This document shows, one piece after another, positions 49,667 through 57,275 of a stretch of 64,000 nt of DNA. The stretch is from assembly GCA_017625755.1 (NCBI GenBank), contig JAGAKG010000049.1, positions 1 to 64,000 on the forward strand. The letters run 5' to 3'. The translations under genes were made by a program, and so were the position numbers. The notes under the pieces were generated by a model that saw only the letters and a list, made by a program, of their open reading frames with translations, had not been told where the DNA came from and did not search any database. This DNA comes from Clostridia bacterium (lineage in GTDB: Bacteria; Bacillota; Clostridia; Oscillospirales; CAG-272). How positions within the stretch are numbered: position 1 is the stretch's first letter; every line of letters starts with the position of its first letter.

Positions 49667-51010
49667 ATGAACAGTAAATACACCGACAGCTGTGCCGAAA
49701 TTGTCGGAAAAAATATAAAAAAAGTAACCCTTGCGCTCAAGATAACAGTCTGCGTTCTCGCGGCGCTTATGATATTTCTTGCCGTCGCGCTTATAATAGA
49801 TATTGTCGGTCTTACGATAGAGCATACGCTTGAAGCGGGCGACAAGCTCCCGAGCGCGGTATCGCTTTCGGGAAAATCAAACGCAAGATACGAGTTTGGC
49901 GACTATGACGGTGAGTTTACCGTACCCGGTGAATATGAGTTTTATATAATTTCGGGCAGCCGCCGCTTCAAGGTCAAGCTTACCGTTGAGGATACCACCG
50001 CCCCTCGAGCTGAGCTTTTGCAGCTTTATGTCAACAAGGGTGGTCCGTACCCCTCGGCTATCGACTTTTTCAAGAATGTGACAGACGCTTCGGAGGTCAC
50101 CGCAAGATTTAAAAACGGAGTTAACCCCTCTGAGCTTGGCGAGTACGATATAGAGCTGGAGCTTTCCGACGCCTACGGAAATAAGCGAAACTACAAAACC
50201 AAGATGATTCTTATCACGGACACCGTTCCGCCCGTCATATCGGGACCTTCCGCAATAACGGGATATCTTGGCGAGGCTGTCGCCTATCGCAAGGATATCG
50301 TGGTTACAGACAACTGCTTTGGCGAGGTCAAGCTCGATGTTGACACATCTAAGGTCAATCCCGACAAGGCGGGAACCTACAAGGTGATATACACCGCGAC
50401 CGACGCGGCAGGAAATGCTTCTACCTTTGAGCTTAATCTGACTATTGTCGCAGAGAGAGTTACCTACGAAGCTCTTATGGAGCAGGTAGGCACGCTTGCG
50501 GCTCAGCTTGGAATTACCAAGAATATGACAAAAGAGGAGCAGGTCAAGCGGATATACGGATATGTCAACAGTCCAAATCTTTCGGCGTCGACGGCGAACA
50601 TCAAGTTCTTTGACGAGTCGAACACCGACAGAAGCGACTGGATAAGAGAGGCGGCGCTCACGCTCAGAGCAGGCTCGGGCGACTGCTATTCCTATTTCGC
50701 GGTATCCAAGGCTTTCTTTGAGTATTTCGGAATAGAGAACAGGGATATCGAGCGCTCGAAGGGAGTTACCACGCAGAGCGGAACTCACTTCTGGAGCATG
50801 GTCAACATAGGAACTGCGGAGAATCCCCAGTGGTATTATTACGACGCGACAAGGCTCAAAACACCGCACGCGAGCGGAAACGCTTGTTTGTTTACCGAGT
50901 CTCAGCTCGTGGATTATAACACCAACAAGCAAAAGGGATTTCTGACCTACGACCACGCGGGTTATCCCACGGCTTCAACGAAAATTATTAATACAGGATA
51001 CGCTTGGTAA
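49667..51010 (+). CDS. Membrane-anchored protein with Ig-like and transglutaminase-like domains
   Basis: A 447-residue protein: N-terminal cytoplasmic tail, one transmembrane helix (about 25-52), then an extracellular part. Two or three beta-sandwich repeats (about 65-270) each end in patterns like GEYDIELELSDAYGNKRNYKTKM and AGTYKVIYTATDAAGNASTFEL, as in HYR/DUF5011-type domains. The C-terminal transglutaminase-like domain has Cys340 (GSGDCYSY), His374 (GTHFWSMVN) and Asp393 (WYYYDAT) as a catalytic triad. Such domains cleave or cross-link wall peptides or proteins. The stop codon overlaps the ATG of the dltA-like gene (TAATG), so it heads this operon. Confidence 0.85.
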   Translation: MNSKYTDSCAEIVGKNIKKVTLALKITVCVLAALMIFLAVALIIDIVGLTIEHTLEAGDKLPSAVSLSGKSNARYEFGDYDGEFTVPGEYEFYIISGSRRFKVKLTVEDTTAPRAELLQLYVNKGGPYPSAIDFFKNVTDASEVTARFKNGVNPSELGEYDIELELSDAYGNKRNYKTKMILITDTVPPVISGPSAITGYLGEAVAYRKDIVVTDNCFGEVKLDVDTSKVNPDKAGTYKVIYTATDAAGNASTFELNLTIVAERVTYEALMEQVGTLAAQLGITKNMTKEEQVKRIYGYVNSPNLSASTANIKFFDESNTDRSDWIREAALTLRAGSGDCYSYFAVSKAFFEYFGIENRDIERSKGVTTQSGTHFWSMVNIGTAENPQWYYYDATRLKTPHASGNACLFTESQLVDYNTNKQKGFLTYDHAGYPTASTKIINTGYAW

Positions 51011-52512
51011 TGAGAAAGAATATACTTCAATATCTTGAGGACAGCGCGGCGCGTCTGCCCGAGAAAATCGCATTTTCAAACGGCGAAGAGGATATAAGCT
51101 TTGGCGAGCTTGAGAGAGCGTCGAGAGCGATAGGAAGCTATCTTGCCGCGAGAGGGATAAGGAGAGAGGCGGTCGCGGTCTTTATGGACAAGCATCCGAT
51201 GACGCTTGCGGCGTTTTTCGGAGTGATATACGCGGGTTGCTTTTATGTCTGCATCGACTCGGCTATGCCCGAGGAGAGAATAAAAACTATACTGAATAAT
51301 GTTTCCGCGAGGGTCATTATTTCCGACGAGAAGAATTACAAAAAGGCGTCCGCTCTGGGTGTCGAAGTGCTTCTTGGCTACGACGATATCGCGCAGACAG
51401 AGATAGACGGGGCGCTTCTCGCGTCTATCCGCGCAAGGCAGATAGATACAGACGCGATATATGTCGTTTTCACATCGGGCTCAACGGGAGTTCCAAAGGG
51501 AGTGGTGGCGTGTCACCGCTCGGTGATAGACTACACAGAGGCGCTCTGCGAGGCGCTTGAGTTCTCCGAGGACACGGTTTTCGGAAATCAGACGCCGCTC
51601 TACTTTGACGCGCCGCTCAAGGAGATAATGCCGACGCTCAAATACGGAGCTACGACATATTTTATCCCGAAATCTAAGTTTATGTTTCCCGTCAGGCTTG
51701 TGGAGTATCTCAACACATACAAAATAAACACGATATGCTGGGTCGTTTCGGCGCTTACGCAGATATCGGCGCTCGGCACTTTTGAGGTCTGCCGTCCCGA
51801 GCATTTGCGTCTCGTGGCGTTCGGAAGCGAGGTCTTTCCCGAAAAGGACTACCGTCTGTGGAGAGAGAATATTCCCGAGGCTATCTTTTACAATCTTTAC
51901 GGCCCGACCGAGGCGACGGGCATGTCCTGCTATTGGCGCGCCGACAGAGAGCTGTCCGAGGGTGAGCCGATACCGATAGGAAAGCCATTTAACAACACAG
52001 ATGTTTTCCTGCTCGACGAGAGCGGCAGAGAGGCGGACGAGGGAGAGATATCTATTCGCGGTACCTGCCTTACTATGGGGTATTACAGCAATCCCGAAAA
52101 GACTGCCGAGGCGTTCGTGCAGAATCCGCTCAATGGGGCGTACGGCGAGCTGATATACCGTACGGGAGATATCGGACGGAGAAATGAATACGGCGAGCTT
52201 GTTTTCGTTACGCGAAAGGATTCTCAGATAAAGCATCAGGGACACCGTATCGAGCTTGGCGAGATAGAGGCGTCGGCACTGAGATGTCAGAATGTCAGAA
52301 AGGCGTGCTGCGTCTATGATGCAGAGCATAAGAGGATAGCGCTTTTCTACGAAGGCGATGCCGAGACGGCGGAGCTGAAGCGCGAGATAGCTCGGATTTT
52401 ACCGAAATATATGCTTCCCGCGATATGCGAAAGAGTTCCCGCAATGCCATTGACGGAAAACGGAAAAATAAACCGCAGACAGCTCAAGGAGCGCGCGGAA
52501 AAATACGATTGA
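51010..52512 (+). CDS. dltA: DltA-like amino-acid adenylating enzyme (D-alanine ligase subunit 1)
   Basis: A 500-residue ANL-superfamily adenylating enzyme. The phosphate-binding loop FTSGSTGVPKG lies near residues 155-165. NLYGPTEATGMSCYW, YRTGDIGRRNEYGELVFVTRKDSQIKHQGHRIELGEIE and the catalytic Lys in ENGKINRRQL are intact. DltA loads D-Ala onto the carrier DltC for teichoic-acid alanylation; downstream DltC-, DltB- and DltD-like genes support this. Amino-acid specificity was not read from sequence. ATG 51010 overlaps the preceding stop. Order here is A-C-B-D rather than the usual A-B-C-D. Confidence 0.87.
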   Translation: MRKNILQYLEDSAARLPEKIAFSNGEEDISFGELERASRAIGSYLAARGIRREAVAVFMDKHPMTLAAFFGVIYAGCFYVCIDSAMPEERIKTILNNVSARVIISDEKNYKKASALGVEVLLGYDDIAQTEIDGALLASIRARQIDTDAIYVVFTSGSTGVPKGVVACHRSVIDYTEALCEALEFSEDTVFGNQTPLYFDAPLKEIMPTLKYGATTYFIPKSKFMFPVRLVEYLNTYKINTICWVVSALTQISALGTFEVCRPEHLRLVAFGSEVFPEKDYRLWRENIPEAIFYNLYGPTEATGMSCYWRADRELSEGEPIPIGKPFNNTDVFLLDESGREADEGEISIRGTCLTMGYYSNPEKTAEAFVQNPLNGAYGELIYRTGDIGRRNEYGELVFVTRKDSQIKHQGHRIELGEIEASALRCQNVRKACCVYDAEHKRIALFYEGDAETAELKREIARILPKYMLPAICERVPAMPLTENGKINRRQLKERAEKYD

Positions 52513-52533
52513 TAACTGAGAATGGAGAAAATT

Positions 52534-52761
52534 ATGGAAAGGCTTATAGAAATTTTGCAGGAGCTTCACGACGATGTGGATTTTTACGCCGAGCAGGGAC
52601 TTGTTGATGACGGAGTGCTTGATTCGCTCGATATCGTCGCGATAGTTACCGAGATAGATTCCGAGTTCGGAGTCAGAATTCCGCCCGAGGAGATAGTTCC
52701 CGAAAACTTCAACTCGGCAGAGGCGCTCTGGGCGCTTATCTCAAGACTCGACGAGGTTTGA
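52534..52761 (+). CDS. dltC: DltC-like acyl carrier protein
   Basis: A 75-residue carrier protein. The phosphopantetheine site is Ser31 in GVLDSLDIVAI; residues FGVRIPPEEIVPENF follow, as in DltC/ACP helix III. It would carry the activated amino acid from the DltA-like enzyme to the membrane acyltransferase. ATG 52534 has GGAG six bases upstream and is preferred to a Met four codons earlier. Confidence 0.88.
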   Translation: MERLIEILQELHDDVDFYAEQGLVDDGVLDSLDIVAIVTEIDSEFGVRIPPEEIVPENFNSAEALWALISRLDEV

Positions 52762-52827
52762 TGTTTGTTTTTGATATTGCAGAATAAAGATATAAATTAA
52801 TTAACAATCAAAGGAGGAGAAAATAAA

Positions 52828-54420
52828 ATGCTGTTTACATCGTACGAATTTCTGGCGTTTCTGGCAGTCGTTTTTCTCCTCTATTATATTCTCCCAAAAA
52901 AGCTTCAATGGGTGACCCTGCTCGTCGCGAGCTACGCTTTCTACGCTCTCGCGGGAGTTGAATATCTCGCGTTTATCGCGGTGACGACTGTATCGTCCTT
53001 TATCGCGACGATTCTTATGGGCAGAGTCAGCGCACGAGAGAACAGCTATCTTGAGCAGAACAGAGCGGGGCTGTCTAAGGACGAGATAAAGGCGTATCGC
53101 GAGAAGGCTAAGGGGCGCAGATTTTTGATTTTGTGTCTTGCGCTTCTGCTCAACTTCGGAATACTCGCGGTGCTGAAATACACGGCGTTCGCCGTTGTTA
53201 ATATCAACTCGTGGCTTCACACATTTGGCGCGGAGGGGCAGCTTACCGTTCCGTCTCTGATACTTCCTCTCGGAATATCCTTCTATACCTTCCAGACGAT
53301 GGGATATCTTATAGACGCGTACCGAGGAAAGGCGGAGATAGAGAGGAACCCCTTCAAGCTCGCGCTTTTCGTGTCATTCTTCCCTCAGCTGATACAAGGC
53401 CCTATCTCGAGGTTCAAGGATCTGGGCGCGCAGCTCACCTCTCCCCACGCCTTTGAGAGAAGGAATTTTACATACGGATTGCAGAGAATTCTCTGGGGAT
53501 ATTTCAAGAAGCTCGTTGTGGCGGACAGAGTGCTTGTTGCCATAAACACTATGATAGACGCGCCCGAGAGCTATGGCGGATTTTATGTATTTCTGCTCAT
53601 AATCCTTTATTCGGTGCAGATATACGCCGACTTCACGGGTGGTATCGACATCACTATCGGTATCGCCGAGGCGCTCGGAATCAGGCTTACCGAAAACTTC
53701 AACCGTCCGTTCTCCTCGCGCTCGACCAAGGAATACTGGAACCGTTGGCACATCACGATGGGCTCCTGGTTTACAGACTATATTTTCTATCCGCTCTCGG
53801 TCTGCCGTCCTATGGCGAAGCTGACCAAGGGCTGTCGAAAGATTTTCGGAAAGAATATCGGCAAGAGAATCCCCGTTTATCTCGCGACCGTAATCACCTG
53901 GTTCCTGACGGGTCTGTGGCACGGCGCGGGTTGGAACTTTATCGTGTGGGGACTGCTTAACTGTCTCATTATCCTCGTTTCGCGAGAGCTTGAACCGCTT
54001 TACGCAAAATTTGAGAAGAAATTTCCGAGGCTTCACGCGTCCTACGCCTACGGCGTGTTTATGTCGGTCAGAACATTTTTGCTTATGGGACTTATCCGCT
54101 CGCTCGATTGTTACAGAGATGTCCCGCTTACATTCAGAATGTGGGGCAGTATGTTCACGCAATTCAATATTTTCGAGGCGCTCGGCGGCGGAATAGAGGC
54201 GCTCGGTCTCGGTCTTGCCGACTACATAATAATCGCGCTCGGCTGTGTCGTTATGCTTGCGGTCAGCAAGGCGGGCAAGGAGATAAGCGTGAGGGAAAGG
54301 CTTTACGACCGTCCCGTGCTTTCCTGGCTTTGCTTTGGCGCGCTCTTTGTGGCGATAATCCTTTTCGGCGCGTACAGCGTCGGGTATGACGCAAGTCAGT
54401 TTATCTACAATCAGTTCTGA
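52828..54420 (+). CDS. dltB: DltB-like MBOAT-family membrane acyltransferase
   Basis: A 530-residue polytopic O-acyltransferase. MBOAT marks: FISYEFL-type start, LPLGISFYTFQTMGYLIDAYRG, FFPQLIQGPISRF, RPFSSRSTKEYWNRWHITMGSWFTDYIFYPL, and the catalytic His in LTGLWHGAGWNFIVWG. It passes the activated acyl or alanyl group across the membrane to a surface polymer. GGAGGAG precedes the ATG, and the SGNH-type partner gene follows by 17 bases. Confidence 0.9.
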   Translation: MLFTSYEFLAFLAVVFLLYYILPKKLQWVTLLVASYAFYALAGVEYLAFIAVTTVSSFIATILMGRVSARENSYLEQNRAGLSKDEIKAYREKAKGRRFLILCLALLLNFGILAVLKYTAFAVVNINSWLHTFGAEGQLTVPSLILPLGISFYTFQTMGYLIDAYRGKAEIERNPFKLALFVSFFPQLIQGPISRFKDLGAQLTSPHAFERRNFTYGLQRILWGYFKKLVVADRVLVAINTMIDAPESYGGFYVFLLIILYSVQIYADFTGGIDITIGIAEALGIRLTENFNRPFSSRSTKEYWNRWHITMGSWFTDYIFYPLSVCRPMAKLTKGCRKIFGKNIGKRIPVYLATVITWFLTGLWHGAGWNFIVWGLLNCLIILVSRELEPLYAKFEKKFPRLHASYAYGVFMSVRTFLLMGLIRSLDCYRDVPLTFRMWGSMFTQFNIFEALGGGIEALGLGLADYIIIALGCVVMLAVSKAGKEISVRERLYDRPVLSWLCFGALFVAIILFGAYSVGYDASQFIYNQF

Positions 54421-54437
54421 CGGAGGTGAGGGCGTAT

Positions 54438-55451
54438 ATGAAAAAAAGAATATTGATTTCGGTATCGGCTCTGCTTGTAATATGCGTTCTGTTATCGCTT
54501 CTGCAGGCGCTTGTGATACCGAAATATACAGATAATAAAGAGGGGGCGCTCGTCTCGGAATATTACGGCGAGGTGGGCGACCACGACCTTATTTTCGTAG
54601 GTGACTGCGAGGTTTACGAGAGCTTCGTTCCCGCATATCTCTGGGAGAAATACGGAATAAGCTCCTATGTGAGAGGGAGCGCTCAGCAGCTCGTATGGCA
54701 GTCCTACTACCTGCTTGAGGAAACGCTGAAATATGAAACGCCGAAGGCGGTAGTATTCAATGTTATGGCGCTGAAATACGGCGAGCCGCAAAGAGAGGCG
54801 TACAACCGAATGACGCTTGACGGTATGCGGTGGTCGACATCAAAGATAGGCGCGATAAACGCCTCGATGACCGAGGAGGAAAGCTTTGTTGAGTATGTTT
54901 TCCCGCTTCTGCGCTTCCATTCGAGGATAACCGAGCTGACGCCCGACGATTTCAGGTACGCCTTCCGCGACAACAAGGTGTCGCACAGCGGATATCTTAT
55001 GCAGACGGGAATAGTTCCGCAGACAGACTTTTCCGAGGGACGCGCCGAGGTAGACTATGAGATAGACGAGAACGCTTGGAAATACCTCGATATGATGCGT
55101 GAGCTTTGCGCGGACGAGGGAATAGAGCTGATACTCGTCAAGGCTCCGACAAACTCGTGGATGTACTGGTGGCACGACGAGTGGGAGGCGCAGGTCGACG
55201 ATTACGCCGAGCGTCACGGCTTGACCTACTACAATTTCATTCCTCTCGCCGACGAGATGGGGATAGATTGGTCGACAGACACATACGACGCGGGGGCACA
55301 TCTCAATGTATACGGAGCCGAGAAGCTGACCGAGTATTTCGGGCAGATACTCAGCGAGAAGCACGGACTTGCCGACAGGCGCAACGAGACGGAGCTTGCC
55401 GAGGCTTGGGACGCGCGGCTTGAAAAATATTATGAAGAAAGAAATAAATAA
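54438..55451 (+). CDS. SGNH-like (DltD-like) surface protein with Cys at the nucleophile position
   Basis: A 337-residue protein with an N-terminal signal anchor (about 5-27) and an extracytoplasmic SGNH-like domain. Block I reads FVGDCEVYES with Cys57 at the place of the usual Ser. The C-terminal block reads DAGAHLNVYG with Asp284 and His288. AAs around LEETLKYETPKAVVFNVMALKYGEP match a clostridial family found beside MBOAT genes. By position it should complete the acyl transfer as DltD does, but sequence identity to classical DltD is not apparent. ATG 54438 with GAGGG five bases upstream is preferred over a GTG at 54426 that overlaps the Shine-Dalgarno sequence. Confidence 0.8.
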   Translation: MKKRILISVSALLVICVLLSLLQALVIPKYTDNKEGALVSEYYGEVGDHDLIFVGDCEVYESFVPAYLWEKYGISSYVRGSAQQLVWQSYYLLEETLKYETPKAVVFNVMALKYGEPQREAYNRMTLDGMRWSTSKIGAINASMTEEESFVEYVFPLLRFHSRITELTPDDFRYAFRDNKVSHSGYLMQTGIVPQTDFSEGRAEVDYEIDENAWKYLDMMRELCADEGIELILVKAPTNSWMYWWHDEWEAQVDDYAERHGLTYYNFIPLADEMGIDWSTDTYDAGAHLNVYGAEKLTEYFGQILSEKHGLADRRNETELAEAWDARLEKYYEERNK

Positions 55452-56406: not shown

Positions 56407-57006
56407 TTACCAACTGCCATCAATTTTCTTGGCAGTATATATAATTGCGTGAGTGAAAAAATTTGGTTCACCATAGCAAAAATCTGGTGCATGAAATGTT
56501 CCATATTCTAATGTTCGTATAATCTTCTCAATTTCAACATATATTTCTTTTTCGGAAAGATTCGAGGAAATCATTTCGCAAAGAACACTTTCAAAAAAAA
56601 CATGTTGATCGGGTTTTAAGTTAGGCAATCCGTTTTTATCGAAACGAAAAATTTGTAATATTTTTTTGTGTTCCGAACATGTATATTTATTGAGATTCGG
56701 TAGATATATAGATTGAAGATTTTCTCCAAAAGCGATTTCCTGATTAAACGCACGCAAATGAAATTCCCTATCCAGATATGGATTGTTTGCAATGTTTTCT
56801 TCGATATTTTGACACATAGTATTTACCCAAAAAATGATTGTTTCGTTCGTTTTAATACGATCAATTCTGTTTTGAAGTTCTTTTTCTTCTCTTGCTTTTT
56901 CTAATCGTTTTTTCTCTTCCAGTTTTTCTTTTCGCTTTTTATGCGAGGTATAGCATAATGCAATTAAAAAAACGATGACAATAAAAATAATGATAATTTT
57001 GAACAT
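56407..57006 (-). CDS. Orphan membrane-anchored coiled-coil protein
   Basis: A 199-residue protein not recognised. Residues 2-20 (FKIIIIFIVIVFLIALCY) are a single membrane helix. A strongly charged coiled coil follows (about 24-55, Lys/Glu-rich), then a soluble domain of about 140 residues with several Cys and His (CSEHKKILQIF, APDFCYGEPNFF). The soluble part is probably cytoplasmic by the positive-inside rule. The ATG at 57006 has GGAGGAAC just upstream. Codon use and base composition are clearly more AT-rich than the neighbours, suggesting acquisition. A long structured leader with its own promoter and a terminator controls it. Confidence 0.75.
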   Translation of the reverse strand: MFKIIIIFIVIVFLIALCYTSHKKRKEKLEEKKRLEKAREEKELQNRIDRIKTNETIIFWVNTMCQNIEENIANNPYLDREFHLRAFNQEIAFGENLQSIYLPNLNKYTCSEHKKILQIFRFDKNGLPNLKPDQHVFFESVLCEMISSNLSEKEIYVEIEKIIRTLEYGTFHAPDFCYGEPNFFTHAIIYTAKKIDGSW

Positions 57007-57246
57007 AACTGTTCCTCCTGAAAATAAAAAGGTGTGCCAACAGAAGTCAGCACACCGAAAAATGCGAACTTCCATTGTTGCCACACAATTCTCAACAAAT
57101 CAGGATACTCTCCATCACATGCCAAGCGGAAATCGCATTTTTGCCAAATCCATTATTGACATGTAAAAAAGGTATAAGTCACAAAACCCTCTAAAAAATA
57201 GAGAGCTATCCCATAACTTTGTTGATTAAATTGTGTGGCAGTTAAA
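57007..57246 (-). ncRNA. Structured leader RNA with crossing helices and attenuator-like terminator
   Basis: About 240 bases between a consensus promoter and the ATG of the orphan gene. Helix P1: 57229-57240 with 57079-57090 (12 bp), plus 57218-57225 with 57092-57099 (8 bp). Helix P2: 57128-57142 with 57058-57073 (about 15 bp, one bulge, one G-U). P2 has one strand inside and one outside P1, so the two form a pseudoknot or compete. A small hairpin CTCTCTA/TAGAGGG lies within P1. A terminator (57031-57056) follows P2 directly. It matches no RNA class I recognise. Confidence 0.6.
57031..57056 (-). terminator. Intrinsic terminator between leader and start codon
   Basis: On the minus strand GGTGTGC pairs with GCACACC (7 bp). 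The stem extends by TGAC/GTTG to 11 bp with a TTCT loop, followed by TTTTTATTTT. The Shine-Dalgarno sequence of the orphan gene begins a few bases later, so this is placed for transcription attenuation. Confidence 0.75.
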
Positions 57247-57275
57247 ATTGTATCATAAAATATGCAGTTTGTCAA
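57247..57275 (-). promoter_or_regulatory. Sigma-A promoter of the leader RNA and orphan gene
   Basis: On the minus strand TTGACA (57270-57275), 17-bp spacer, TACAAT (57247-57252). The expected start is within a few bases of the 5' strand of helix P1. Confidence 0.8.

Follow-up and report, generated by a model that had tools for sequence, protein, structure and literature searches.

The window analysed here, a 64,000-nucleotide stretch of a Clostridia bacterium contig, carries on its minus strand a leader RNA of ~220 nt, counted between the promoter and the end of the terminator, that lies before a gene for a 199-residue protein (Table 1). The promoter, a long helix P1, a crossing helix P2 and the terminator had all been claimed in a preliminary description of this DNA, and direct reading, a motif scan and folding recover each of them in the window. 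The minimum-energy fold of the leader, which includes P1, reaches -87.2 kcal/mol, compared with -49.1 +/- 4.3 kcal/mol for shuffled sequences (z = -8.8). Because a vanY-like gene upstream ends in its own terminator and a strong terminator lies 3' of the open reading frame (ORF), the unit consists of the leader and one gene. The sole Pfam match of the encoded protein, to PspB, is sub-threshold, and no relatives of it were found in 29 other genomes of the genus. The window gene is an orphan, and the conserved part of the locus is the leader. On the plus strand (51004-55451), AMP-ligase, acyl-carrier, MBOAT and DltD-like ORFs stand in a row that resembles a dlt (D-alanylation) operon, as judged from the ORFs alone.

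Table 1. Features of the leader locus in the window, listed in the direction of transcription.
Feature	Position	Strand	Basis or remark
13-bp terminator of the upstream vanY-like gene	57356-57328	-	scan and gene annotation
Promoter TTGACA-17-TACAAT, TG(n) before -10	57275-57247	-	11/12 matches, near-consensus
P1 5' strand, at inferred transcript start	57240-57218	-	read directly, fold, own-versus-swapped test
P5 hairpin CTCTCTA/TAGAGGG, U-rich loop	57205-57187	-	read directly; variable in family
P4 5' strand ACATGTCAA	57164-57156	-	read directly
P3 hairpin GGATTTGGCAAAAATGCGATTTCC; its loop plus 3' arm supply the P2 5' strand	57151-57128	-	family covariation
P2 5' strand AAAAATGCGATTTCC	57142-57128	-	read directly, family covariation
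P4 3' strand TTGGCATGT	57125-57117	-	read directly
P1 3' strand	57099-57079	-	read directly, fold, own-versus-swapped test
Antiterminator 5' strand CAATGGAAG, overlapping P2 3' strand	57077-57069	-	family covariation
P2 3' strand GGAAGTTCGCATTTTT	57073-57058	-	read directly, family covariation
Intrinsic terminator: 11-bp stem 57056-57031 plus TTTTTATTTT	57056-57021	-	motif scan
Antiterminator 3' strand CTTCTGTTG, in terminator loop and 3' arm	57046-57038	-	family covariation
Ribosome-binding site AGGAGGA	57019-57013	-	read directly
199-residue ORF, orphan, N-terminal membrane segment; ATG at 57006	57006-56407	-	ORF list
Terminator after ORF, 12-bp, loop of 9	56265-56233	-	read directly; outside the limits of the terminator scan

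In the window copy P1 is 20 bp long, comprising TGCCACACAATT and a CAACAAA block, and P2 forms 15 pairs with one bulge, crossing P1 as a pseudoknot and abutting the terminator. Pairing with GGAGAGTATCC is an equally possible alternative to the P5 hairpin, and P3 is weak in this copy.

The leader had been described as belonging to no known class and as lying before an orphan gene, and both statements hold. At the gathering score no Rfam 15 family matched the window or 20 relatives of the leader, and lax thresholds returned nothing relevant; direct reading and the Rfam scans likewise agree with the earlier statement that a T-box sequence is lacking. We found no description of the leader family in the literature, including the searchable text of two RNA-discovery papers. 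Thousands of unnamed candidate structured RNAs have been mined from human microbiomes (PMC8040213); the passages of its main text that were compared contain nothing of the leader's kind, and a fragment of the leader family is possibly among those candidates. As far as we found, this RNA switch family is new to description.

Searched with the leader DNA, the window genome yielded one further copy at 68% identity, and 15 of 59 relatives gave matches. For family searches we used R1, a covariance model of the 3' part of the leader, which matches 13 places in the window genome (the last one weakly, at 26.9 bits). R1 has at least one match in all 30 genomes of the genus, in 121 of 196 genomes and 56 of 71 genera of the taxonomic family, and in 83 of 245 genomes of the order, where a single genome holds as many as 15 copies. 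Across a phylum-wide sample of 398 genomes only one weak match fell outside the order; this locus (L103 in G517, 38.8 bits) has neither the CAAYNGG core nor a proper P1, and we took it to be a chance terminator. No phage record, plasmid record or IMG/VR viral contig matched, and thus within the records searched the family is not viral or plasmid-borne. The family is carried by Clostridia and Oscillospiraceae bins, most of them originating in the gut of ruminants and deer; a named isolate, Anaeromassilibacillus senegalensis An867 (Acutalibacteraceae), is a carrier too.

Leaders often stand at contig ends (G004:C3 start, G004:C18 end, G350:C32 end, and the starts of G028:C1 and C94), and because repeats break short-read assemblies the copy numbers are minimum values. 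Tandem or clustered leaders occur at L106 (G000:C24:15628 and 15965), L105 (G000:C57:42122 and 42319), L007/L034, L082/L135, L128, L121 and L120 (4 copies in 5 kb). In some of these, what stands behind the first copy is a broken gene remnant (MSKFGK* in L082) or no gene at all.

The copies follow a common plan. In the 5' half, the promoter is followed by P1, which has an inner extension, by a hairpin that varies, and by a long P4 stem ending in P3, whose loop reads GGYAAAAAYGC; the 3' half consists of the P1 3' strand, CAAYNGGRG, NNNGCRUUUUU, the terminator, the ribosome-binding site (RBS) and the gene. In 133 of 134 copies a -10 element ends 3-14 nt upstream of P1, the distance being 4 or 6 nt in most, and TGn is present in 108. 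A short form of ~150-180 nt replaces the three-way junction with a single long hairpin. The window copy has all five family parts, namely P1, P2, the antiterminator, the terminator and the promoter at P1.

Pairing was assessed in 134 distinct copies. Because a MAFFT alignment of the full leader misplaced the variable middle, we used anchored alignments and an own-versus-swapped test, in which a strand is paired with its own partner and, in permutations, with partners from other copies. Pair counts were additionally checked against slide controls and against shuffles, which leave sequence relatedness in place. With its own partner P1 exceeded all permutations (z = 32 across the 134 copies), and so did its inner extension (z = 20.9), P4 (z = 26.5), P2 (z = 11) and P3. 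For P2, 98.1% of cells were paired, double changes occurred at 6 of 15 pairs, and all 15 pairs were complete in 88 of the 134 copies; its four AAAA/UUUU pairs are invariant and thus uninformative on covariation. The terminator was paired in 99.4% of cells with double changes at 9 of 12 pairs, and the P3 arms covaried moderately (81.1% paired, z 6.4). Slid control versions dropped to a paired fraction of roughly 10-66%. On this comparative evidence the parts of the window leader are not products of chance, as the same parts are found again, with covariation, in the 134 distinct relatives. The preliminary description had proposed Rfam covariance models and a search for covariation and conservation of the pairs in homologous loci as checks; the former gave no family match, the latter found both, and the claimed fold stands.

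The family comparison adds parts that the preliminary description did not contain: an antiterminator, the P4/P3 hairpin, on which the 5' strand of P2 is displayed, and the family itself with about a dozen further copies in the genome. The antiterminator was paired in 94.3% of cells, with double changes at 6 of 9 pairs, and none of 500 shuffles scored as high. Its own-versus-swapped z was 9 in the 48 copies with divergent strands; in the 86 consensus-strand copies it is nearly invariant, with too little variation to test (p = 0.10). At the antiterminator the window copy shows a compensated change of its own, CAATGGAAG/CTTCTGTTG as against CAATCGGAG/CTTCGGTTG. As the antiterminator shares bases both with P2 and with the terminator, the arrangement points to a switch. 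The overlaps form a chain, in which AAAUUC is common to P3 and P2, GGRG to P2 and the antiterminator, and CUUCGGUUG both to the antiterminator and to the terminator, as the latter's loop and 3' arm. Shared bases and covariation, as comparative evidence, give the family the mutually exclusive terminator and antiterminator of an expression platform, and the whole is a covarying structured 5' UTR leader, as a riboswitch would be. The riboswitch or attenuator layout proposed earlier is therefore strengthened, with P1 and P2 covarying across the order and the terminator competing with a covarying antiterminator.

We consider it probable, at roughly 80%, that the leader acts in cis to attenuate transcription, as a structured RNA switch whose family lies outside Rfam. 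Comparison among relatives shows the helices, their overlaps, a promoter at the 5' end of the RNA and a gene start ~18 nt past the terminator; that the leader changes between two states in the cell, and which state a signal favours, we infer. RNA polymerase would start at P1, and P4 and P3 would fold first, displaying AAAAAYGCNNNNYCC, before P1 closes the 5' domain. The next segment, CAAYNGGRG-NNN-GCRUUUUU, would then have two alternative partners. In the OFF state it would join the P3 loop and arm (P2, 15 bp, in a pseudoknot with P1), masking GGRG, so that the terminator forms and the gene stays off. When P3 remains closed or a signal alters the 5' domain, P2 would be incomplete, and in the resulting ON state CAAYNGGRG would join CUUCGGUUG in the terminator loop and 3' arm, blocking the terminator and allowing the downstream gene to be transcribed.

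Mean calculated energies in the family are about -18 kcal/mol for P2, about -14 for the terminator, about -11 for the antiterminator and -5 for P3. Those of P2, the terminator and the antiterminator are close enough for competition, so that switching would be feasible. For the copy in the window the calculation gives a stronger terminator (-17.1) than antiterminator (-7.5), and reaching the ON state would thus take help from kinetics or a ligand. Additionally, U-runs of at least 5 upstream of the conserved A-run occur in 94% of the long form versus 64% in shuffles, which points to, without deciding for, a possible U-A-U triple helix of the conserved upstream U-run with the A-U pairs of P2.

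As a sub-case of the attenuator, the P1/P4/P3/P2-core may bind a metabolite or second messenger and so constitute a small-molecule riboswitch in the strict sense, to which we give a little less than even odds. A complex conserved 5' domain with a pseudoknot and the loop GGYAAAAAYGC, coupled to a terminator/antiterminator pair, is consistent with this, as are the several copies per genome before surface and accessory genes, an arrangement found in second-messenger riboswitches. However, the downstream genes have no common pathway that would name a ligand, and the domain sequence varies among subtypes (the short form lacks the three-way junction), such that no invariant binding pocket stands out. 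The trigger might instead be a protein or another RNA that binds the P3 loop or single-stranded CAAYNGG and shifts the balance between P2 and the antiterminator. The conserved loop and joining segment would be accessible until P2 forms, and confinement of the family to one order fits a lineage-specific partner; no candidate partner was identified, however, and we regard this trigger as rather unlikely.

Transcription-attenuating riboswitches with a pseudoknotted aptamer, such as fluoride, ZTP/pfl, SAM-II and preQ1, resemble the leader in position, pseudoknot, exclusive terminator and antiterminator, and control of a single gene. The leader family differs from them in having no sequence or covariance-model match in Rfam 15, in a long P1 that begins at the first base of the transcript, in a P2 that itself competes with the antiterminator, and in downstream genes without a common pathway. 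T-box leaders are likewise long 5' leaders of Bacillota that choose between terminator and antiterminator; the family described here lacks the T-box sequence and any Rfam T-box match, and no aminoacyl-tRNA or amino-acid families are among its commonest downstream families. ToxI-type antitoxin leaders share the order of pseudoknotted RNA, terminator and gene, and an antitoxin-type attenuator had been one of the earlier suggestions. We abandon that suggestion, as each leader is a single unit without the tandem short repeats of ToxI and type III toxin-antitoxin systems, and is followed by diverse surface and accessory genes. The raiA motif, or ModT RNA (PMC11706538), is also a large structured RNA in Clostridia, but the leader has no Rfam match to it and occurs in many copies per genome, each before a different gene.

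An ORF with an RBS begins within 100 nt of the terminator in 121 of 134 copies, at a median of 18 nt, and the 13 copies without a nearby ORF are mostly tandem copies or lie at contig ends. By a simple lipobox rule, 28 of the 121 downstream ORFs are lipoprotein-like, compared with 15 of 272 other ORFs at the same loci. Among the 111 downstream proteins scanned, the commonest Pfam families were BspA-type LRR (10), SHOCT (7), DUF6809 (4) and zinc ribbons (4); SLOG, collagen-like and HTH proteins also follow leaders. The downstream genes are mostly unrelated to each other. Defence genes were considered as targets and rejected, as PADLOC gave no consistent family.

The regular position of these RBS-bearing genes bears on another explanation, in which a stable terminated RNA of ~220 nt acting in trans is the main product and adjacency to a gene is secondary. 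The leaders have their own promoter and terminator and many copies, and the tandem copies at L007, L106 and L105 have no intervening gene. A trans-acting RNA would, however, have no use for an antiterminator that covaries with the terminator, and together with the gene position this makes the explanation improbable.

Similarity between leaders was no predictor of the gene that follows. Leader pairs at 80-85% identity had homologous downstream proteins in 3 of 70 cases, compared with 2.4% of all pairs, and 71 of 74 leader pairs at identities of at least 80% had no flanking similarity; just beyond the transcript, similarity between leaders is near background, promoter hexamers excepted. In the 20-kb surroundings of leaders from two congeneric genomes, whose pnp genes are 84% identical, the sole similarity is 301 bp at 90.7% over promoter, leader and RBS. 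The leaders of two genomes in different families reach 83% identity, compared with 67% for pnp between the window genome and the distant genome of that pair, and another pair has in common the leader and 1.47 kb upstream (about 70% identity), but not the gene. Thus, leaders and genes are being reshuffled or exchanged, a process that may run through recombination of one leader copy with another or through a dedicated mechanism. The fall in similarity just outside the transcript led us to consider retro-copying of the leader transcript; as the closest pair keeps the promoter too (-42 to +21), we prefer DNA-level spread or recombination.

Similar leaders in unrelated contexts would also be expected of a repeat or miniature transposon whose inverted repeats mimic P1 and which has no function as RNA. 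The ends of such an element conserve sequence, whereas P1, P4, P2, the antiterminator and the terminator keep their pairing through sequence change. The conserved unit also does not stop at the 'inverted repeat' but reaches the terminator, the orientation promoter, leader and gene is kept in nearly every copy, and no virus or plasmid record matched, so that we consider a mobile repeat very improbable. Returning to the attenuator, we tentatively suggest, as an idea more doubtful than probable, that promoter, leader and RBS (~290 bp) may form a portable cassette. It would spread among unrelated genes within a genus, and possibly across families, so that a single signal common to the order would control a changing set of accessory and surface genes, and it would serve as a site of gene exchange. 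To our knowledge, close leaders in riboswitch classes in general precede orthologous genes, and compared with these the uncoupling of leader from gene is unusual.

Taken together, these comparisons indicate that the window leader belongs to a family of transcription-attenuating leader RNAs that spans the order, and to this picture an antiterminator and the reshuffling of leaders and genes are now added. The preliminary description identified the object correctly and rated its importance cautiously. About one-third of the genomes sampled from an order of gut Clostridia carry this putative switch RNA, which is not in Rfam. The family points to a signal used by many uncultured gut bacteria to control surface and accessory genes, and because the named isolate An867 has a copy, the question is testable.

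Some small proteins recur behind leaders. A Cys-rich protein, VCLGNGEQGFECCCDECDYFLLCFPEFD, without a Pfam match, follows leaders in several genomes (L192:1375-1578, L114:1524-1727, L154, L134, L003, L070, L044 and others). Small 'FxGHR/FCGH' proteins follow leaders at L016, L038, L039, L124, L164 and L162; that at L164 weakly matches SLOG/YpsA and that at L016 has no Pfam match. The protein at L030 is of a different, SLOG/DprA-like type, with an above-threshold match.
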